From positions 1 to 32,288 of the forward strand of contig JAGLPS010000004.1 in the NCBI GenBank assembly GCA_023137185.1: a DNA stretch of 32,288 nucleotides, given 5' to 3'. How positions within the stretch are numbered: the stretch's first letter is position 1; every line of letters begins with the position of its first letter. A program made the translations under genes and the position numbers. The DNA comes from Minisyncoccota bacterium. GTDB lineage: Bacteria > Patescibacteriota > Minisyncoccia > Phycocordibacterales > JAGLPS01. Of this stretch, positions 3,603-30,418 are shown in pieces. Below the pieces are notes generated by a model, which ran no database searches, was not told where the DNA came from, and worked only from the letters and a program-made list of their open reading frames with translations.

Positions 3603-4514
3603 CTAAAACGGATTGCTTCCTTGGATGAGTTCTGGGGGTCCGTCTTGAATTATTATTCCCCCGCCGTCAGGTATCTCTCCTCCGGTAAAATCAGTATCCT
3701 CTGAAGAAGATTCCTCGGATGAAGATTCCTCCGAAGTAGACGAAGAAGTACTTTCTTCAGAAGAGGTGTCTCCCGAACTGCTACCAGACTGGACTTCCTC
3801 CAATTCTTCTTGAATTGTCTCCACTTCCTCCTGCGCTTGAGTTACCACATCTTCCTGCATAATTATTTCCTCTGAAGTTATTGTTATTTGTTCATTTTCA
3901 TTTGCAGATGAATTTGCAAGAGTCTCAATGATAGCATCTATCTCCCCTGCCGCCTCGAAAATAGTCGTGAAATAAATATCTATCTGCTCTTGTGAAAATC
4001 CGGAGTTTTCAGGCGTGAGGGCATCAATAATCGCGAGAAGATCGTCTACAAATGATTTAACGGCCTCGGCATCTTTTTTGATAGCGCTTGCCGTCTTGTT
4101 GGGACAACTTTTGAGGATATTATTTATTTCCGCACGTTTTCCATTAATATCTGCTTCAATCTTAGGAGTTTCCGTATAAAGCCTGATTTTGGGATTTGTA
4201 CTCGGTTTATCAAACAAAATATCAAGACTTCTGACAATATTTGCTATTTTTATACACTCCGCCTGAACAGCCGCATATTGCGAATATGTGGCCCGAAATA
4301 TCTTTTTAAATTCGTTGAGCTTGTCTGTTTCCTCTTCCACGAGAGTCTGCGCTTGGGAGAGTTTCATTTGTAGTTTTTCTTCTTGGGTCTTTTTCTCATC
4401 CTGTAAACGAAAACACATATATACCCCTCCGCCAACAAGCACGGCAATTACAATAACAATAAGCGGCACAGCGATTCCTTTTTGAGTGTTCCTCATATTT
4501 TTATATTTTTCCAC
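3603..4514 (-). CDS. Membrane-anchored coiled-coil protein with Ser/Glu-rich C-terminus
   Basis: TM at ~aa 12-35, long helical region, then SSSGDTSSEESTSSSTSEESSSEESSSEDTD low-complexity tail. Confidence 0.75.
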   Translation of the reverse strand: MEKYKNMRNTQKGIAVPLIVIVIAVLVGGGVYMCFRLQDEKKTQEEKLQMKLSQAQTLVEEETDKLNEFKKIFRATYSQYAAVQAECIKIANIVRSLDILFDKPSTNPKIRLYTETPKIEADINGKRAEINNILKSCPNKTASAIKKDAEAVKSFVDDLLAIIDALTPENSGFSQEQIDIYFTTIFEAAGEIDAIIETLANSSANENEQITITSEEIIMQEDVVTQAQEEVETIQEELEEVQSGSSSGDTSSEESTSSSTSEESSSEESSSEDTDFTGGEIPDGGGIIIQDGPPELIQGSNPF

Positions 4515-9385: not shown

Positions 9386-10618
9386 TCATTTATTAAGAAG
9401 AATTTCAACTGCCTTTTGAAGCTGAGGGTCGCGGTCTTTTTCTAGGTCATCAAGAGTCATTTCTATGACAACATCAGGTGTTAGTCCGTTTACAGAAATA
9501 GAATTTCCATTCGGTGTGAGCCATTTGGCGATAGTAATTTTAAGAGAGGTTTTATCGGTAATATCCACAAGTTCTTGAACCGAGCCTTTTCCAAATGTTT
9601 GCTGGCCTACCACAGTTGCCGCGCCAAGCTCTGAAAGTGCCCCAGCAAGAATTTCTGAAGCGGATGCCGAGCCGCGGTTGACGAGAATTACAAACTTGAG
9701 AGTGTCATTGAAAATATCATATCCTTTACTTCGATGCTCCCGTGAATTTTCCTCCCCCCCAAAATCCTCTACCGCAATTATCTTTCCTGCCGGCAGAAAC
9801 CAGCTTGCTATGTCCACAGCGGCTTCTAAATACCCACCCGGGTTGTTGCGAAGGTCAAGAATAAGTTTGTTCGAGCCAGTAAGAATAAATTCTCTCAATG
9901 CGTTTCTGAAAAGGTTTGGGGAAGTCGCGGAAAAACTGAATAAACGAATCACAAAAATTCCATCAGAACGCAGTTCGGTTTCGATTGTCGGAATATCAAT
10001 CACCGCGCGAGTAATCGAAACGTCAAATGGTTCTTCCACTCCTTCCCGATAAATTGTCAGCACTACCGTCGTGCCTTCCAGCCCTCTTATTTTCTGCACA
10101 GCTTTTTCAATACCAAGATTCGCAGTCGATTCTTCATCGATAGCAAGAATTTTGTCCTGCGCAAGCAACCCCGCCCGAAATGCCGGGGTCCCTTTGAGTG
10201 GAGAAATAACCGTAAGTATTCCATCGCGAATCCCAATTTCCATACCTACTCCTTGAAAATTACCACTAATATCACTTTCAAAAATTTCTGCTTCGACTGG
10301 TGGGAAGAATACCGTATAAGGATCGCCGTAGGAAGCCGCAAGCCCTTCAATTGCTCCCCAGACTTTATCCTCATTACTAACCGCATTGTCCGTGCTTGTG
10401 GACACTGAAACGAATTTATTTTCAAGTATGTTCCATGCTTTCCAAAAAGGAGAAAAATCAACCGCTGAAGGTTTGCCAGTTTCTTGGTTTATGACATTAG
10501 TAGCTTTAAAATGCGCCTGTTGACCCCCTAAAAAAAATCCGAGTCCAAATGACGCGCCTATAAGAATAACAGATACCGTAATTAGAGATAAACGACTGAA
10601 AAAATTTTTCATAGACAA
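9386..10618 (-). CDS. ctpA: S41 family C-terminal processing peptidase
   Basis: TM, PDZ region (GVGMEIGIRDGILTVISPLKGTPAFRAGLLAQDKILAIDEEST), LDLRNNPGGYLEAAVDIASWFLP, NRGSASASEILAGAL, GKGSVQ. Confidence 0.93.
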   Translation of the reverse strand: MSMKNFFSRLSLITVSVILIGASFGLGFFLGGQQAHFKATNVINQETGKPSAVDFSPFWKAWNILENKFVSVSTSTDNAVSNEDKVWGAIEGLAASYGDPYTVFFPPVEAEIFESDISGNFQGVGMEIGIRDGILTVISPLKGTPAFRAGLLAQDKILAIDEESTANLGIEKAVQKIRGLEGTTVVLTIYREGVEEPFDVSITRAVIDIPTIETELRSDGIFVIRLFSFSATSPNLFRNALREFILTGSNKLILDLRNNPGGYLEAAVDIASWFLPAGKIIAVEDFGGEENSREHRSKGYDIFNDTLKFVILVNRGSASASEILAGALSELGAATVVGQQTFGKGSVQELVDITDKTSLKITIAKWLTPNGNSISVNGLTPDVVIEMTLDDLEKDRDPQLQKAVEILLNK

Positions 10619-21270: not shown

Positions 21271-22740
21271 TTAATCACCAGATTTACACCCGCCTTTGTC
21301 AAGAAAGCAATCAATGTTTTCTCTCAAATACGCGTAAAGCATATCTACATTCATACCCCACCTCAAGACTGTGCCTCTTACAAAACCATATTTTTTTTCT
21401 TTGATAGGTTGAGAATAATTAAAAGTTTTAAAACCAAAACCATTAAAATACTTTCTGGAACAGTAGTTTAAACCTGCCTCAACTCTGTATCTATACTTGA
21501 AATAATCTGGCAGTTTCTCCCAAAGCTCACGAGTAAGCGCGCGTTCCCCAGAATTTACCGCAATTAAATGAACGGCCTTTTGCATCAAATTTCCCCTCAG
21601 TCCAATAAACATAGAAAACAAACCCCCAGTAACCGGTGAGATTATTTGTTGGATTATTTCCGGAGTCAAATTTATCAAATCGGCGTCGCAGAAAAAAAAT
21701 ATATCCGCATTCGTTGACAGTACCCCTATATCCATTGAACTTGCTTTGCCAAGATTTGTTTTATTCCGCATATACCTGACACCCTTAAACTTTTTTATTA
21801 CTTTTTCTGTATCATCCGTTGATCCGTCATCTACAACAATAATTTCATCTATACTCGGCGCCGCTGTTACAGCTTCCAAGACAGCTCCGATTCTGTCTGC
21901 TTCATTGTACGATGGGATTATAGCAGCAACTTTTTTCGGCTGCTTCGCTAGATTATGAAATATATCCCTGTCTTCAACAAAACGCAGAATTTGGTCGTTA
22001 ACTTCACTGTTGCCATCAGAAAAGAATACATTATGTGGTTTTATGGAAAACATTTTCTCATATTTAACGGTAGATCCAACATTATTTTGTATTACTCTAA
22101 GAGATTCGGGGCGACCAATGCGGTCATTGGTTGAATAGATTGTAAGTATTGGACATTTTATTTTTTGCATACTTTTCTTCAGTTCATTGCGCAACTGTCT
22201 TACAATGTTTAATCCGTTCATATGCATATATTTATAAGAAAATGCCCCTTTTCGCATCTCTTTTTCAATATGAGAAATACTTGCTTTTTTCCAATATTTT
22301 TTATATTTGTGGAGTTTTACTAAACCTAATATATTAAACGGAAACTTTAAAAGATATGGGGAGGAAACATTAAATACTCCTTTCACTGGATATCGTGACG
22401 CAAGAATTAATGAAAAAAGACCGCCCATACTGACGCCTCCTAAAATTATTTCTCGTCCCTTTCTGATATCTTTTTCTATTTCAGTAGTTAAATGCATCAG
22501 AAAGTCGTCATAAGTAACACTGTCTAAGTCCTCTATTTTTGTTCCGTGTCCCGGAAGCAAAATAACTCTGACGTTTGTATTGAATTTTTTATTTAAAATA
22601 TACGGAAGTTGGTGAAAGTCGGTGGGGCTTCCCGTATATCCATGAATTAGAAAGATTTCTGTATTTGAATCTGCCGATAATTCAATAGATTTTATTTTTT
22701 CCATTTTTAGCATTTTGACATTTTGATGGTCTTTGGTCAA
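21271..22740 (-). CDS. Fusion protein: N-terminal alpha/beta hydrolase (carboxylesterase-like) + C-terminal GT2 glycosyltransferase
   Basis: N-half: FLIHGYTGSPTDF, LPGHGT, GGVSMGGLFSLILASRY (GxSxG), SIKPHNVFF. C-half: VAAIIPSYNEADRIGAVLEAV, EIIVVDDGSTDDTEKVI, NLGKASSMDIG, FFCDADL. Confidence 0.85.
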   Translation of the reverse strand: MTKDHQNVKMLKMEKIKSIELSADSNTEIFLIHGYTGSPTDFHQLPYILNKKFNTNVRVILLPGHGTKIEDLDSVTYDDFLMHLTTEIEKDIRKGREIILGGVSMGGLFSLILASRYPVKGVFNVSSPYLLKFPFNILGLVKLHKYKKYWKKASISHIEKEMRKGAFSYKYMHMNGLNIVRQLRNELKKSMQKIKCPILTIYSTNDRIGRPESLRVIQNNVGSTVKYEKMFSIKPHNVFFSDGNSEVNDQILRFVEDRDIFHNLAKQPKKVAAIIPSYNEADRIGAVLEAVTAAPSIDEIIVVDDGSTDDTEKVIKKFKGVRYMRNKTNLGKASSMDIGVLSTNADIFFFCDADLINLTPEIIQQIISPVTGGLFSMFIGLRGNLMQKAVHLIAVNSGERALTRELWEKLPDYFKYRYRVEAGLNYCSRKYFNGFGFKTFNYSQPIKEKKYGFVRGTVLRWGMNVDMLYAYLRENIDCFLDKGGCKSGD

Positions 22741-22850: not shown

Positions 22851-23249
22851 CTAAATAAGTTTTAAAATCAAATCAAAAAGTCTTCCTGCGAAACTATTGT
22901 ACAATAATTTTTTTGTTTCATCCTCAGAAATTGGAAATTCTGTCCTGTTAATTTTAATAAACATTGAATAGTGATTTTCCTGAAATATTTTATTACGAAA
23001 TTCCCTTAAGGTGTTAACCAGCTCCAACTCAACTTCGTTGATTAAATTTCTCTCTTTTACGTCTGTTGTTGCTTGATAAAAATTGCCATTATTTTTATCA
23101 ACCGAATGTTTAATTATTTGTTCTGATATTATAAACAGACAAACTAATCCAGCAAAATAATTTCCATATTGATAAGAATATTCCGCCTCGGAACAAATCT
23201 TGCCAAAAACATAATCCTTTTCTATGATTTTACTCAACGTATTATTCAT
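22851..23249 (-). CDS. Small all-helical protein, possibly HEPN-like
   Basis: 132 aa; ATGA overlap with the upstream DUF3883 frame; LREFRNKIFQENHY segment recalls HEPN-type RNxxxH regions. Confidence 0.5.
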   Translation of the reverse strand: MNNTLSKIIEKDYVFGKICSEAEYSYQYGNYFAGLVCLFIISEQIIKHSVDKNNGNFYQATTDVKERNLINEVELELVNTLREFRNKIFQENHYSMFIKINRTEFPISEDETKKLLYNSFAGRLFDLILKLI

Positions 23250-24218
23250 ATTGAAAATGCTTCTATATAATATTTATCAATATTTTTACACCAATCATTA
23301 TTTTCTAAAATATTCTCAATAGGATTAGGAATCATCACTGGTTCATAATTTGGATTATTGATTTTTTCTCTATCTATTAGATATATAAAATACTTTTCTT
23401 GTAGTCGTTTTGCAGTTTCTACTTCATTTCTAGTCCAATAAAAATATGGTTTATCACCTGCATAAGACTTCACTTCAATAAATCTATCGTTATTTTGTGA
23501 TGATAAATCATGAAATGACGAAATGTCATATCCGGTACTAGAATCATATGGAGCAATCCATTGAACACCCTTTTTATTTCTTAATCTTTTTAATTCAAAA
23601 TCTAAAACAAACTTTTCTGCAATTTCTCCATTAATCTGTTGCTGTTCTTGTTGTCTTTTTAACTCCTCAATACCTATTTTTCTTTTTCTTATTTCAGGAG
23701 TAAAATTTGTCTCAAAAAACTTCTTCCACCTGGAATTAATAATTAGTATTTTACTTGGAAAGTCTGGGTGGGGTTTAAAAAACTCAAAGTCAATTAATAA
23801 ATTTCGTATACCTGCGTATTTTAGACCAAAAGCAGAGAAATTAATATTTATAGATTTATATATAAAATCATATCAGCTATGTTCTGATGAAAATATATTA
23901 TAAAAGTTTTCATCAGTATCAAGTGCCAGAAGAAATCCCTCCAGTAACTTCTGCTGACAAAGCTGCTGGCTGTGAAAAATATACTTATATTTATATGATA
24001 TTTCAATTAAATTATCTTCATCAACTTTTATTATTTCTGTCAACTTTAATAGAGGTACGCATCCATCAAAAACACTTCTATCGTCAATAATCCTGTTGTG
24101 GAAATATTGAGATATTTCTTCTGTTGACCAAATATTCTCATTTTTCAACTGTTCAAACAAGTTTCCAAAAAAACGAAGGGGTGCCTAGGTTATCATATTT
24201 TCTAAGTTCTTCTAGCAT
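23246..24218 (-). pseudogene. DUF3883-domain protein (predicted PD-(D/E)XK-like), disrupted by a frameshift and an in-frame TGA
   Basis: Start ATG at 24218 overlaps the SNF2 3' end (MLEELRKYDNLGTPSFF). A T7 run at ~24168-24174 shifts frame into FGNLFEQLKNENIW... A TGA at 23873-23875 interrupts the same frame as DUF3883 GVQWIAPYDSSTGYDISSFHDLSSQNNDRFIEVKSYAGDKPYFYWTRNEVETA. Confidence 0.75.
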
Positions 24219-26178
24219 AATCTTTCAAAAGCGTAGTAATGATATCGGTTTCATCGGAATCATTAATCCGTTTAAATAACGGAATATCCTCATCTATAAT
24301 TTCTTCCATCCTCTTCACCTTTAAATCTAATCTTTGATTAATAACTGAATCGATAGAATCATCAGAGACAAGATAGAAATAATTAGTTACAACATTATCT
24401 AAAAGTCCAACACGATGAATACGATCTTTTGACTGTAAAAAATTTGCTGCATTATAATCTCTTTCCATATAAATCGCATTGTGACACCCTTTGTGTAATG
24501 AAATAGATTCGGAAACAGAGAATGGATTAGCAATAACAACATTAAAATCACTATTCTCGGGATTGTTAAAATTCTCAATAATACTTTCGCGCTCAATTTG
24601 CGGAACTCTACCAATTAAAAGTTTGGTTTTTATTTTATTTTTTTCTAGATATTTTTGTAATTCTTCCGCATTTTGTATAAATATTGTCCATATAATAGCT
24701 TTCTCATTTCTTGGAAAGATTTCATTTTCCAATAAGTTCTCAATTTTCAGAAACTTTTGTGGTATGCTAATTTTATTGTAATTAATAATTTTTCTAAATA
24801 CTTCTGAATCATCTATACTTTCATTATTTACTGTTGCAAAATCAATATTTGGATCTATGCCATAAACAGAGTCTTCTAAAGAATCTTGTAAAGTTTTTAA
24901 TAGCAATGATGGATTTGTCGCAGCCTGTCTCAATCGGATTAATTTTGCTTTATTTAAAACATCTTTGACAGTCGCAGATGGATTGCTTTGAAAAGATTTT
25001 ACATATCTCTCTTCTATAAAGTCATAAATTTCCCTCTGATTATCATCCATTACGATTGATACTATATTCTCTTGTACATCTGGAAGCTTAAGATCTTTCT
25101 TCTTAATCCTAATGAAATATGGTTTTATATTCTCTATAAAGACTCGCACTCTTTTATCTTTAACAGAGACTGAATTTTTTGTAAGTTCTTTAAGTTGTTC
25201 ATAGTGGATTTGCAAGATATCTTGAAATTTAAATGGATAAATAAAACGGAAAAGGTTATATAAATCCTCATAACCATTTGGTACTGGTGTCCCAGTTAAA
25301 ATTACCCTTGAAGTGGCTTCTTTAGCGATTTCCACAGCACTTCGACCCCAAATGCCATCCGCATTTTTTATGCGGTGTGCCTCATCAACCACTACCATTG
25401 TTTTGTTCTGTTTAAGAAAATCAATAATTTCTTGCTCTAAGTTTCGTATTCCAGCATGAGATATAAGAGTCAATTCTTTTGGATTAGTGGAGTACAGATG
25501 TTCTTCTTTTTCATCTCTTGTTGTAGATGCATCCCCGGAAAGCCTTTGGCTTCTTACCTTTTTATCAAAACACTCTTCATATTCATTTTCCCACGGAGCA
25601 AAGGAAGAAAGTGGTCCAATTACAAGAATCTTATCAATATGTTTTGGATCATCTTTTGGTAAGTTCTTTAAATATATGTATGCTCCATAAACAATTGATG
25701 TTTTGCCAGCCCCTGGCACAGCAAAATTACAAGCATTTTGCGAAAATGCCATATGATATGCAGATAGCATTTGTAGTGGATATAGAGTTCTCACCATAGA
25801 TTGCTCTAGAACCTCTTTAAAATATCTAAAGCTATCTACAAGTTCTGATTTTTTTGAAAATTTATCGTTTCTTATTGCCTCAGCTTTTTCTGAAAAGAAT
25901 TTAAAGTTTTTCTGTTCGTTATTATATGCAGAAACCTCTTTTTTTACTGATTCGCAAATATTTTCTATAAAATCAAATTTTAATAACAATTCTTGAATTT
26001 CTTGCAAGACAAAAATCTTAGTCTTTATTTCAAAGGGAATTTTTATTATTTTACCTTCTTGCATAAAATGTAATCTTTTTATCGACAACAAAATTCTCTT
26101 ATTCTGTAAGATAGCTTCTACATCACCGCTCAGAATATAATAACTATCCTGTATATCAATGGATATATTTTTACTCAT
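24202..26178 (-). CDS. SNF2-family superfamily 2 helicase
   Basis: ACNFAVPGAGKTSIVYGAY (Walker A), VVVDEAHRIKN (DEAH), VILTGTPVPNGYEDLYNLFRFI, KAIIWTIFIQNAEEL, QSKDRIHRVG. Confidence 0.92.
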   Translation of the reverse strand: MSKNISIDIQDSYYILSGDVEAILQNKRILLSIKRLHFMQEGKIIKIPFEIKTKIFVLQEIQELLLKFDFIENICESVKKEVSAYNNEQKNFKFFSEKAEAIRNDKFSKKSELVDSFRYFKEVLEQSMVRTLYPLQMLSAYHMAFSQNACNFAVPGAGKTSIVYGAYIYLKNLPKDDPKHIDKILVIGPLSSFAPWENEYEECFDKKVRSQRLSGDASTTRDEKEEHLYSTNPKELTLISHAGIRNLEQEIIDFLKQNKTMVVVDEAHRIKNADGIWGRSAVEIAKEATSRVILTGTPVPNGYEDLYNLFRFIYPFKFQDILQIHYEQLKELTKNSVSVKDKRVRVFIENIKPYFIRIKKKDLKLPDVQENIVSIVMDDNQREIYDFIEERYVKSFQSNPSATVKDVLNKAKLIRLRQAATNPSLLLKTLQDSLEDSVYGIDPNIDFATVNNESIDDSEVFRKIINYNKISIPQKFLKIENLLENEIFPRNEKAIIWTIFIQNAEELQKYLEKNKIKTKLLIGRVPQIERESIIENFNNPENSDFNVVIANPFSVSESISLHKGCHNAIYMERDYNAANFLQSKDRIHRVGLLDNVVTNYFYLVSDDSIDSVINQRLDLKVKRMEEIIDEDIPLFKRINDSDETDIITTLLKDYARRT

Positions 26179-26193: not shown

Positions 26194-27591
26194 TTACTCC
26201 AAGTGTTTTATCTTTTTTTCCAATTGATACGTTTCCTTTTCTATATCTTTTACACATTCCAAAAGACTTTCTTTATCTTCAGCATGTTTTGATACTGTAA
26301 CTGAAGACAAAAGATTCAATACTTGCCTCAAGAGTCTTTGCGGTGATTTTCTATGTAAAATATTCGTAGTGATTTCATTCAATTGCTCTACTTTTTCCAG
26401 TACATCTGGCTTCTCAACGTTTTTATTATTCTTCGCAACATTAACCGCATCTATTGATTTAGCAATAAGCTTTTCAGGTTCATCTTTATGTCTTTGGTTA
26501 AATATTTTCTGCTGATGATCTGCCAAATTATCCTCAAGTAAACCTTGTGCTTTTTGTTTAAAATTGCCGTCTCTTTTATTCAATGTCGCAGTAAGGTTAG
26601 CTGAGTCAAGATTTATATTTTCTTCTTCATCATATATAGTAGAAATGTTCTCAAAGTGGGTCTTTTTAAAACTTTCCCAAATCTCCTTATTACCAAAAAA
26701 ATGATTCTGCTTTTGACCGTAGCCTAAATATCTAAATCTTTTTCCTTCATATTTAACCCTTATATAATCAAAAGCAATAATTTTTAAGTCATCAACATCA
26801 CCATCTCTATATCCGTCAAACACTTTAACACTGCCACCACCGTAAAATATACTCAACCATTTTGTTAAATTAATAAATTGATCTTCCCGTCCGTCTAACT
26901 GTGTATATATGCCGTTATAATTTAGATAGTCAAGATAGTCATCCATCGTCTCCATGACAGCAATATACTCATCCACCGTTGACTTACTCTCTCCCATCCA
27001 ATCAGATATATCTTTTACTGATACCCCTTTTTGCTGTAAATTTTTTGCCTTTAAATATTTTTCAATAGGATTGTAACCTAATTTTTCATCTGCGCCCATT
27101 TGATAAGAAGTTTCCAGTTTTTCAATTTCAATCCTGTTTTCTTCAAGAGTTACTGGAAGAATTACAGCTTTAAAATAATCACGGTTTCTTACTTTTCCTT
27201 CTTTATTAATTTTATTGAGCAACATTGCTCGTCGGTTACCATCTATAATTATCCCGTCTCTTGTGATAATTCCTACCTCTTTCTGTCCATGATTTTCGAT
27301 GTCCTCTTTTGTTTTCTTATTTCTATCTGGCTTTGATTCCCAAAGTAATTTTTCCACAAGCTCTTTACCGTCGTCCTTTTCAACTTGAATAAAATCATTT
27401 CCGTATTGTTGTTCGATAGATTTTGTTCTACTCAAAATACGCCCGTTGTACTTATTGTAAACGAGGTACTCCAATCTTACTTTGTACATTGGCATGAGCT
27501 GTAAATCATCCTCCCACATAATTTCTTGCTGACCCCACGCTTTTTGACTTAAAAGTTCTTCAATTTTTTGGATTCTAGTTTCTTTGTTCAT
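26194..27591 (-). CDS. ParB-like protein with partition/nuclease-type N-terminal domain
   Basis: ENHGQKEVGIITRDGIIIDGNRRAMLLNKI (ParB-like GxxxIDGNRR) and HTH-like VSVKDISDWMGESKSTVDEYIAVM; C-terminal coiled coil. Confidence 0.75.
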   Translation of the reverse strand: MNKETRIQKIEELLSQKAWGQQEIMWEDDLQLMPMYKVRLEYLVYNKYNGRILSRTKSIEQQYGNDFIQVEKDDGKELVEKLLWESKPDRNKKTKEDIENHGQKEVGIITRDGIIIDGNRRAMLLNKINKEGKVRNRDYFKAVILPVTLEENRIEIEKLETSYQMGADEKLGYNPIEKYLKAKNLQQKGVSVKDISDWMGESKSTVDEYIAVMETMDDYLDYLNYNGIYTQLDGREDQFINLTKWLSIFYGGGSVKVFDGYRDGDVDDLKIIAFDYIRVKYEGKRFRYLGYGQKQNHFFGNKEIWESFKKTHFENISTIYDEEENINLDSANLTATLNKRDGNFKQKAQGLLEDNLADHQQKIFNQRHKDEPEKLIAKSIDAVNVAKNNKNVEKPDVLEKVEQLNEITTNILHRKSPQRLLRQVLNLLSSVTVSKHAEDKESLLECVKDIEKETYQLEKKIKHLE

Positions 27592-27614: not shown

Positions 27615-29297
27615 TTAATTGTTTAGCAATGATAACAATCCGTAAGCGGACATAAGTTGAGCTATCGGAATATTATCTTTTTGTAAAATTCCTTTCCCGC
27701 TTACAACCTCCTTGTGACATTTATAGGATGAAATTATTTGAGAAAGATTTTTCAATAAAAGTATTGGGTTGGATTCTTGTTTAAGGTGCAAGTCTTGTTC
27801 ATATACTTCTTGCAGTGATGAAACGTTAACAGGTAAACTGCTAATAATTTTTTTGTATTCGTCAAAATGTAGAGATGTTCCTTTTAAAACATTTGCTAAA
27901 TCCTCTTTCTCTTGAGAAGAAAAAATTTTAACACCGTATCCATCTCCTGTTCCAAAAAATGCTACAACATACCAATTTTGTGCAACCTCGTTTTTTTTCT
28001 CTGGATGATAATTCATTAAGTCAACGGTCATATTTCCAAGCTTTATGGCATGTCGTCTAAATCTTGTATTTTTTAATCTTTTTCTAAGAGAATTAAATTT
28101 CTTTTCTTCAAATGTATTCAAGTTTTTAATTTTTTTATAATTCTCTTTTAGTTGGAAAAAATGAATTTTGTCATCTGGAACTTTTTTTAATCCCATCTTT
28201 TTTCTCAATGCTTTTGCTAAAGAGATACTTTGATGTGGACAAACAGAATTACCTATTTGTCGCCATTTTGTGCCTTCAGAACCAACAAATTGATAGACGT
28301 AAGGAAACCCCATCAGACTTGCCACTTCTCTGATAGTGGGTAAGCGATATTCTCCATCTCCACTACGATTATATTCTGATTTGTATATGATTGCTTCTCT
28401 GGTACTTGCAGAACGAGTTGCCATAATCGTACGACTTGTCCTATTTTCATTTTCAGGGAAAGACATTTTTCCCATAAATGGATGGTTTGTTTTTAAAAAC
28501 TCAGCCTTCTCCCATTCAATCTTATAGACACCAGTATCATAGAAATGGTCAGTAATTTCACTTGCTTCAAGTTTTATATTTTGGTAATTTGGGTCAGCAA
28601 ACTTTTTTTTACTATTCTTCTTTTCAGTAGTTTTTGGCATACGACTTCGGACTTCAGAAACTGTTTTATGTTTAGTTTGAATTATTGTTGGAGATATAAA
28701 TTCCCCTGTTTTTATCCACTCACCTGCAATAAATCTTTTTCTTTCTTGTGGTGCTCCATAGTCACCAGCATTCAATATTTCACCTTGTATTTTTAGCGCT
28801 ATGTCTGTTTTTTTACATCCAATTTTTTCTGCCCACTTAGCAAGATTTAGTTGCTCGAACGTATATTTTTCTCGAATGAAATCACGAGACTTTGGCACAT
28901 TTTCCATATACCATCCTTTAAGAACAGTCTCATTCTGATGTTTCTTTACGACAATTACACGAAGATATGCTTTGATAAGCTTTATTCCTAAAGTTTTATC
29001 ACCCTTGCCTGATTTATTTGACATAGAAAAAGAAACGCAAGAAGGAGATCCTATTAAAAATTCTGTGTCTTCTAATTTTTCAATTTCTTCAACATCTGCA
29101 GAATTTTTACCCCAAAAATCTAATACATCTTTTGTTGTGTCATTTAACCCATGATTTAGGTTGTGAGTATCAATCGCCGGTTGCCAAAAATCAATTCCTT
29201 TTACAATTTTAAATCCTTGTTGACGAAATCCTTCAGAAAAACCACCAGCACCACAAAAAAAGTCTATTACTGTTAATTGTTTTGGTTTTCTAAACAT
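27615..29297 (-). CDS. C5 cytosine DNA methyltransferase with extra C-terminal domain
   Basis: FFCGAGGFSEGF (motif I), IGSPSCVSFS (motif IV), YMENVP (VI), APQERKRFI (VIII), KWRQIGNSVCPHQSISLAKAL (X); ~200 aa extension. Confidence 0.92.
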   Translation of the reverse strand: MFRKPKQLTVIDFFCGAGGFSEGFRQQGFKIVKGIDFWQPAIDTHNLNHGLNDTTKDVLDFWGKNSADVEEIEKLEDTEFLIGSPSCVSFSMSNKSGKGDKTLGIKLIKAYLRVIVVKKHQNETVLKGWYMENVPKSRDFIREKYTFEQLNLAKWAEKIGCKKTDIALKIQGEILNAGDYGAPQERKRFIAGEWIKTGEFISPTIIQTKHKTVSEVRSRMPKTTEKKNSKKKFADPNYQNIKLEASEITDHFYDTGVYKIEWEKAEFLKTNHPFMGKMSFPENENRTSRTIMATRSASTREAIIYKSEYNRSGDGEYRLPTIREVASLMGFPYVYQFVGSEGTKWRQIGNSVCPHQSISLAKALRKKMGLKKVPDDKIHFFQLKENYKKIKNLNTFEEKKFNSLRKRLKNTRFRRHAIKLGNMTVDLMNYHPEKKNEVAQNWYVVAFFGTGDGYGVKIFSSQEKEDLANVLKGTSLHFDEYKKIISSLPVNVSSLQEVYEQDLHLKQESNPILLLKNLSQIISSYKCHKEVVSGKGILQKDNIPIAQLMSAYGLLSLLNN

Positions 29298-29745
29298 TTT
29301 TATAAATTTGAACTATCTTGTTTATGATCTTTGGAAGCTTTTTTTTGATTTGACATTCCCACACAATAATCACGGTCCATTTTTGTTCTTTTAATTTCTG
29401 TATTTTTATTAAGTCTCTATTTTTATTTCTCGCAAATTTATTTTTCCAAAACTTTCGATTACTCTTGGGTAACGACAATTTGCAATACGGGCATCTGTGC
29501 CAAAAACAGCCATTTACGAATATTGCTAACTTCTTATATGGGAAAGTGATATCTGGACGACCAGGGACTTTTTTCCAATAAAGTCTATAACCCCTTAGTC
29601 CATGTGCCCACAGTATATGCCTCAGAATCATTTCAGGTTCAGTGTTTCTTGCCTTGTTAGCACTCATTACTTTCGAGATACTCTCATTCTTAAGGATAGG
29701 CGCCCGTCCATCTCTTATATAAATTTTACTTATATTACTACCCAT
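29290..29745 (-). CDS. vsr: Very-short-patch-repair-like (Vsr) endonuclease
   Basis: SKVMSANKARNTEPEMILRHILWAHGLRGYRL...KVPGRPDITFPYKKLAIFVNGCFWHRCPYC...FWKNKFARNKNRD. Confidence 0.92.
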   Translation of the reverse strand: MGSNISKIYIRDGRAPILKNESISKVMSANKARNTEPEMILRHILWAHGLRGYRLYWKKVPGRPDITFPYKKLAIFVNGCFWHRCPYCKLSLPKSNRKFWKNKFARNKNRDLIKIQKLKEQKWTVIIVWECQIKKKLPKIINKIVQIYKNV

Positions 29746-30115: not shown

Positions 30116-30158
30116 TATCAATATAAAACTCCGCTCAAAGCGGAGTTTTATATTGATA
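30116..30158 (-). terminator. tRNA-Glu downstream hairpin/terminator
   Basis: TATCAATATAAAACTCCGCT-caa-AGCGGAGTTTTATATTGATA, 20 bp perfect arms. Confidence 0.75.
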
Positions 30159-30159
30159 T

Positions 30160-30230
30160 GACCCCACGGGGAATCGAACCCCGATTTTGAGCTTGAGAAG
30201 CTCACGTCCTAACCGTTAGACGATAGGGCC
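30160..30230 (-). tRNA. tRNA-Glu (CTC)
   Basis: GGCCCTATCGTCTAACGGTTAGGACGTGAGCTTCTCAAGCTCAAAATCGGGGTTCGATTCCCCGTGGGGTC: full cloverleaf, loop TTCTCAA, anticodon CTC. Confidence 0.93.
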
Positions 30231-30366
30231 AATTATTGTATTTTAGCAAAAGCACGGTTCGATTCCGAATCGGTCACAGATAATTTTCTGCTGAAAATTT
30301 CCGCGACCCCGCCTCGGAGCCCAAGGCTCCTCCGGCCCTGAAACGCTGCGTGCTCTCGCGTTTCAG

Positions 30367-30418
30367 CCCCTCTTTTGAGCTTGAGAAGCTCATGTCCTAA
30401 CCGTTAGACGACAGGACC
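30367..30418 (-). pseudogene. Truncated tRNA-Glu (5' ~52 nt only)
   Basis: GGTCCTGTCGTCTAACGGTTAGGACATGAGCTTCTCAAGCTCAAAAGAGGGG, then diverges into a hairpin instead of the T-arm and acceptor. Confidence 0.75.

Follow-up and report, generated by a model that had tools for sequence, protein, structure and literature searches.

Restriction-modification (R-M) operons in which SNF2 helicases are fused to DUF3883 have been described before, and DUF3883 was named a restriction endonuclease (REase) domain in that work (PMC3710099, Anantharaman et al. 2013). The characterised systems nearest in logic to the locus examined here are CglI and NgoAVII. Both cut in an ATP-dependent manner; their nuclease is of the PLD family and carries a B3 domain, and their ATPase is of the DEAD-Z1 type (PMC4267653). 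Restriction genes commonly vary between strains by frameshift and erosion (PMC9465063), and the locus below carries a nuclease gene with two lesions. Our literature searches found no paper on its exact gene combination, a ParB-SNF2-NOV_C R-M operon.

The operon was found in a genome of 0.70 Mb in 26 contigs (completeness 100, contamination 0.5). We use "the window" for the whole 32,288-nucleotide stretch of DNA that was analysed. Listed in the order in which they are read, the genes are as follows.

29290..29745, minus strand: Vsr-family endonuclease, intact ORF of 151 aa (Pfam Vsr, 2.9e-22)
27615..29297, minus strand: C5-cytosine DNA methyltransferase, intact ORF of 560 aa (Pfam DNA_methylase, 1.2e-33)
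26194..27591, minus strand: ParB-like subunit, intact ORF of 465 aa with a conserved DGxxIDGNRR motif (from alignments and an AlphaFold2 model)
24202..26178, minus strand: SNF2-type ATPase, intact ORF of 658 aa, Walker A and DEAH kept (Pfam SNF2-rel_dom, 3e-28)
23246..24218, minus strand: broken NOV_C/DUF3883 gene for a predicted winged helix and PD-(D/E)XK nuclease, with a 17-nt overlap between its start and the SNF2 stop
22851..23249, minus strand: ORF of 132 aa, family not assigned, its start codon and the final TGA of the broken gene overlapping as ATGA

A scan of species genomes placed the nearest homologue of the NOV_C protein in an Anaerolineales MAG (locus L003), where it is an intact ORF of 43% identity. 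The gene order there is that of the window (Vsr, C5-methyltransferase, ParB-like, SNF2, NOV_C/DUF3883), and the NOV_C gene likewise starts 17 nt inside the SNF2 gene (7908 vs 7924), an identical overlap. The Vsr proteins of the two loci share 61% identity, and that of the window scores 116.7 bits against NCBIfam TIGR00632, above the cut-off. The C5-methyltransferases share 44.5% identity, and the window's SNF2 protein is 59% identical to that of L003 and 68% to that of another locus, L057.

The 132-aa ORF at the end of the operon is without a Pfam, PADLOC or NCBIfam match; by eye only, it shows a degenerate HEPN-like RNKxF motif. Beyond it, at 21271-22740 (minus strand), alpha/beta-hydrolase and family 2 glycosyltransferase domains are joined in one ORF. 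Just upstream of the operon lie a tRNA-Glu (CTC) and a second stretch of 52 nt that is 90% like it (30158-30231 and 30367-30418, minus strand), possibly a tandem tRNA duplication or the trace of integration at a tRNA gene. A 50-nt stretch in the same region is also duplicated (30021 and 30267).

The gene at 23246-24218 (minus strand) was confirmed to be interrupted twice, by a frame change and by a TGA, and so departs from the one uninterrupted frame of its homologues. The elements concerned are these.

24155..24187, minus strand: interval holding the frame change, which includes a T7 run and is marked by the first-frame stop TGA at 24155 and the second-frame stop TAG at 24187
23871..23873, minus strand: in-frame TGA, aligned with Ser116 of the L003 protein in a variable column
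23369..23620, minus strand: NOV_C domain (Pfam), with catalytic-type D codon 23527, E 23476 and K 23470

The earlier note had proposed that two small ORFs (23873-24160 and 23246-23473) are pieces of one frame with a single internal TGA, and that this frame encodes a DUF3883 domain with a D..ExK signature. Both points held. The stretch 24160..23249 (minus strand) is a single coding frame, closed by a TGA at 23248-23246 and broken inside by just one other TGA (23873-23871). The C-terminal 208 codons match Pfam NOV_C (= DUF3883, PF13020) with an E-value of 2.6e-17 and 63.1 bits against a gathering score of 22.1; the intact L003 protein gives 67.6 bits. A frame of this length was kept open in 0 of 20,000 shuffles, and the three signature residues (D232, E249 and K251 in L003 numbering), invariant in 11 homologues, are all in frame in the window.

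The start of the gene lies in another frame. The ATG at 24218, inside the SNF2 3' end, opens 21 codons that run to the TGA at 24155. This first frame corresponds to residues 1-21 of the intact L003 homologue (67% identity, E 1.7e-4), and the second to residues 32-320. Because the two parts of one homologue match different frames, the frame change is real in the window sequence. Its site is less sharply placed than had been supposed. The earlier note put the T7 run at 24168-24174 and let the second frame be entered only by skipping one of its Ts; the run in fact occupies 24173-24167, and a residue comparison over 24187-24155 makes it a candidate and not the sole possible site. Just 3' of the run, it is still the first frame whose residues agree a little more closely with the homologues (W at 24167 vs G), so the change may sit downstream of the run.

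This bears on whether slippage at the T7 run could switch the nuclease on and off, a form of phase variation that had been raised as an alternative. The run does lie inside the frame-change interval, and R-M genes elsewhere vary by frameshifts in repeats (PMC9465063). An unusually long repeat tract that is kept in relatives, as would be looked for in a phase-variable R-M gene, is not seen here: runs of at least 7 occur about 1.5 times per kb of this genome's coding DNA, several of them in the partner genes, and runs near the gene start reach at most 6 in the seven sampled homologues. Slippage would moreover leave the TGA in place, and the frame change may itself lie 3' of the run. Phase variation is therefore a most improbable account of the locus.

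The second lesion is a TGA, which the earlier note had held, from gene ends in the window, to be a true stop. The genome encodes release factor 2 (prfB), and within the window TGA terminates conserved genes, namely an exonuclease at 4493 and a C-terminal protease at 9386. It also ends 10 of the 92 long ORFs sampled across about 203 kb of the genome, and no tRNA with a UCA anticodon was found in those 203 kb. TGA is thus a true stop here, and TGA recoding was rejected on these grounds. Past the internal TGA there is no in-frame ATG, GTG or TTG for 133 codons. The first is the GTG at 23473, and since this falls within the ExK motif, the ORF 23246-23473 could not encode a nuclease. No second NOV_C gene able to complement the broken one is present in the genome.

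A related proposal is that the TGA is read through, or that two separate proteins are the normal products of the gene. Some encouragement for it comes from a distant Chloroflexota relative, genome G805 (locus L020, G805:C74, 5394-6410, minus strand), in which a NOV_C gene following ParB-SNF2 is likewise interrupted by a single in-frame TGA; this falls in the N-terminal third and has a GTG 12 codons on. The two TGAs occupy different alignment columns, however, and in the window a frame change would still need passing. Furthermore, in each of ten distinct loci (L003, L007, L012/L014, L015, L017, L042, L044, L045, L046 and L047) the NOV_C gene after ParB-SNF2 starts within the 3' end of SNF2 and forms a single ORF, about 307-323 codons long, whose product opens with much the same peptide, M-x-x-[ED]-L-[KR]. 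A natural split into two proteins, which the earlier note had kept in view, is therefore rejected, and with release factor 2 present and no usable start before the ExK motif, we find any form of recoding hardly credible.

Relatives with damage of their own were also seen. Besides its in-frame TGA, the G805 locus has an N4/N6-type methyltransferase (by its TSPPY motif) in place of the C5 one. In genome G1089 (L036, G1089:C357, 1468-2300, minus strand) a short SNF2 remnant overlaps a partial NOV_C ORF; this rearranged remnant adjoins an unrelated ATPase gene. A same-phylum sample of 379 genomes gave no other ParB-like relative, NOV_C searches in 297 genomes of the order returned one weak match only, and a plasmid search with P0001 gave no match. 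Further ParB-SNF2-NOV_C loci were found in the Streptococcus prophage Javan191 and in IMG/VR contigs.

To gain insight into what has been lost, we turned to the intact L003 protein, for which an AlphaFold2 model was available (mean pLDDT 75). Residues 9-83 form a predicted winged helix, with Z-scores of 8-9 to several winged helices. Residues 196-323 of the model align with the archaeal Hjc resolvase 2wj0 (Z 8.9, 2.8 A, 103 aligned), and the C-terminal domain matches the effector nuclease of SPARDA (Z 9.1), although Foldseek alone gave weak E-values for this domain. Based on these matches to Hjc and SPARDA nucleases, we assign the C-terminal domain a PD-(D/E)XK nuclease fold with moderate confidence. 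The frame change falls among the initial helices of the winged-helix domain, and the in-frame TGA lies after this domain and ahead of that of the nuclease.

The ParB-like subunit was modelled in the same way. Residues 32-304 of its AlphaFold2 model align with KorB (8qa9; Z 11.7 over 198 residues), and the model gives Z 9.3 to Noc and Z 9.3 to ParB, as expected of a predicted ParB N-domain plus helix-turn-helix fold. Of the features that would bear on putative CTP binding or hydrolysis, what is seen is the conserved DGxxIDGNRR motif. Sequence profile searches of the PDB with the NOV_C and ParB alignments gave chance-level matches only.

The state of the partner genes was compared with the earlier proposal that the effector is inactivated while the methyltransferase and helicase are intact. 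The loss of the effector stands, as do the open frames of the Vsr, ParB-like, SNF2 and methyltransferase genes. The methyltransferase calls for caution: in motif IV, immediately ahead of the catalytic cysteine, it has PSC where L003, the nearest relative, shows the canonical PPC. An enzyme with this motif may have lower activity, and since PSC replaces PPC in an open frame, intact modification is not certain. The remaining motifs of the protein look normal.

How long ago the nuclease gene was interrupted may be gauged from how little else has changed. When trees were built for NOV_C, SNF2 and ParB from one set of eleven taxa, the ratio of the window branch to the L003 branch was 0.53, 0.50 and 0.55, respectively, with a bootstrap interval (about 0.5-2.5) so wide that this comparison of rates carries little weight. 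The nine other homologues share 53 invariant columns, of which 41 are kept in the window frame and 33 in L003. The equal branch ratios and the conserved columns argue that there has been little time for decay. As 6.4% of random substitutions in the broken frame create a stop, one nonsense codon and one frame change also fit a short time since loss. Judged from these comparisons, the inactivation is probably recent.

An error in the consensus would likewise leave the frame well kept, and both lesions are read from one consensus sequence. On this view the living population would carry an intact gene, and metagenome assembly would have produced both lesions; in its favour, the frame is otherwise perfectly kept and without excess divergence, and one lesion lies at or near a homopolymer. 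To set against this, 119 orthologous genes shared with a genome of the same family (about 32,600 aligned residues) held no clear internal frameshift or stop; the few cases flagged among them were end effects, antisense ORFs and an in-frame deletion. At such a rate it would be improbable for a single gene of 973 nt to pick up two errors independently, and of different kinds, and all four partner genes are in frame despite having more homopolymers. We consider assembly error unlikely. Alternatively, intact and broken alleles may coexist, the assembly showing the broken one. Restriction genes do differ between strains of one species by frameshifts and pseudogenes (PMC9465063), and the recent look of the inactivation suits such a polymorphism, to which we nevertheless assign a very low probability.

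The low GC content of the operon (27-33%, against 38% in the genome sample) suggests horizontal acquisition. The account we favour, and hold to be likely, is that of a horizontally acquired R-M operon whose nuclease subunit is now a pseudogene, probably of recent origin, through a frame change and a nonsense codon. In the intact relatives, the methyltransferase would mark self DNA, the ParB-like and SNF2 subunits would act as a complex that binds unmodified DNA and moves along it by nucleotide hydrolysis, and the NOV_C subunit would then cut it. In the window strain the cutting subunit presumably cannot be made, which would leave the operon restriction-negative and at most modification-positive.

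Orphan methyltransferases are well known to arise where a restriction nuclease is lost and its modification genes stay, and for that reason the lesion itself is ordinary. It probably represents gene loss within a little-studied family of restriction systems; that intact copies occur in unrelated bacteria and phages again argues for an ordinary and probably recent event. The window offers a natural nuclease-minus allele of the ParB-SNF2-NOV_C system. The wider family, with its ParB-SNF2 core and varied nucleases and methyltransferases, is of more interest than the lesion, and the comparison points to R-M operons that combine exchangeable nucleases with a ParB-fold protein and a SNF2 motor.

Several loci illustrate this variety. 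On a Priestia megaterium plasmid (L009, 6098-8653) the ParB-SNF2 pair occurs without NOV_C, a PLD-like nuclease being fused to the SNF2 N-terminus next to the adjoining ParB-like gene. The closest ParB-SNF2 relative of the window, the IMG/VR contig L057 (234-5699), is also without NOV_C; directly downstream it carries instead the genes for a C5-methyltransferase and for a Sau3AI/MutH-like restriction enzyme. A Lactococcus plasmid (L008) carries the pair after type III mod/res genes, and it is present on many Enterococcus plasmids. It is conceivable, though we put it forward only tentatively, that the ParB-fold and SNF2 proteins form an exchangeable nucleotide-driven core, and that the restriction systems built on it, with their varied nucleases and methyltransferases, make up a widespread NTP-dependent class that has yet to be described. 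The partners of such a core would be NOV_C in the window, PLD in Priestia, a Sau3AI/MutH-like enzyme in L057 and a BanI-like REase in Javan191, and the broken NOV_C gene would be one snapshot of nuclease loss.

Among the loci and systems compared, the uncharacterised loci of Javan191 and of the IMG/VR contigs (together L007, L012-L017, L042-L047) share the ParB-like, SNF2 and NOV_C genes in the same order. They differ in that NOV_C is intact and that the C5-methyltransferase, nearby in several, points the other way; upstream, Javan191 has in addition a gene for a BanI/DpnII-like REase. DISARM and Zorya have SNF2-like ATPases (DrmD and ZorD), and DISARM a C5-methyltransferase as well, but the window's SNF2 protein scores far below the curated cut-offs (53.7 vs 610 for DrmD, 50.4 vs 1500 for ZorD), and the operon proteins include no DrmB, DrmC or Zor partner, giving weak helicase and methyltransferase cross-matches only. 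With CglI and NgoAVII the operon shares a C5-methyltransferase and separate nuclease and SF2 ATPase subunits. Its nuclease, however, is NOV_C (PD-(D/E)XK), with no PLD or B3 match at E<=1 (Pfam) in the operon proteins, its SNF2 ATPase is without a detected Z1 domain, and it has a ParB-like subunit in addition; because the nuclease and ATPase domains differ, it does not belong with these two systems. The described DUF3883 R-M operons likewise combine a SNF2 ATPase with a DUF3883 REase domain, whereas in the window the two are separate genes, accompanied by a ParB-fold subunit and a Vsr protein, and the DUF3883 gene is broken.
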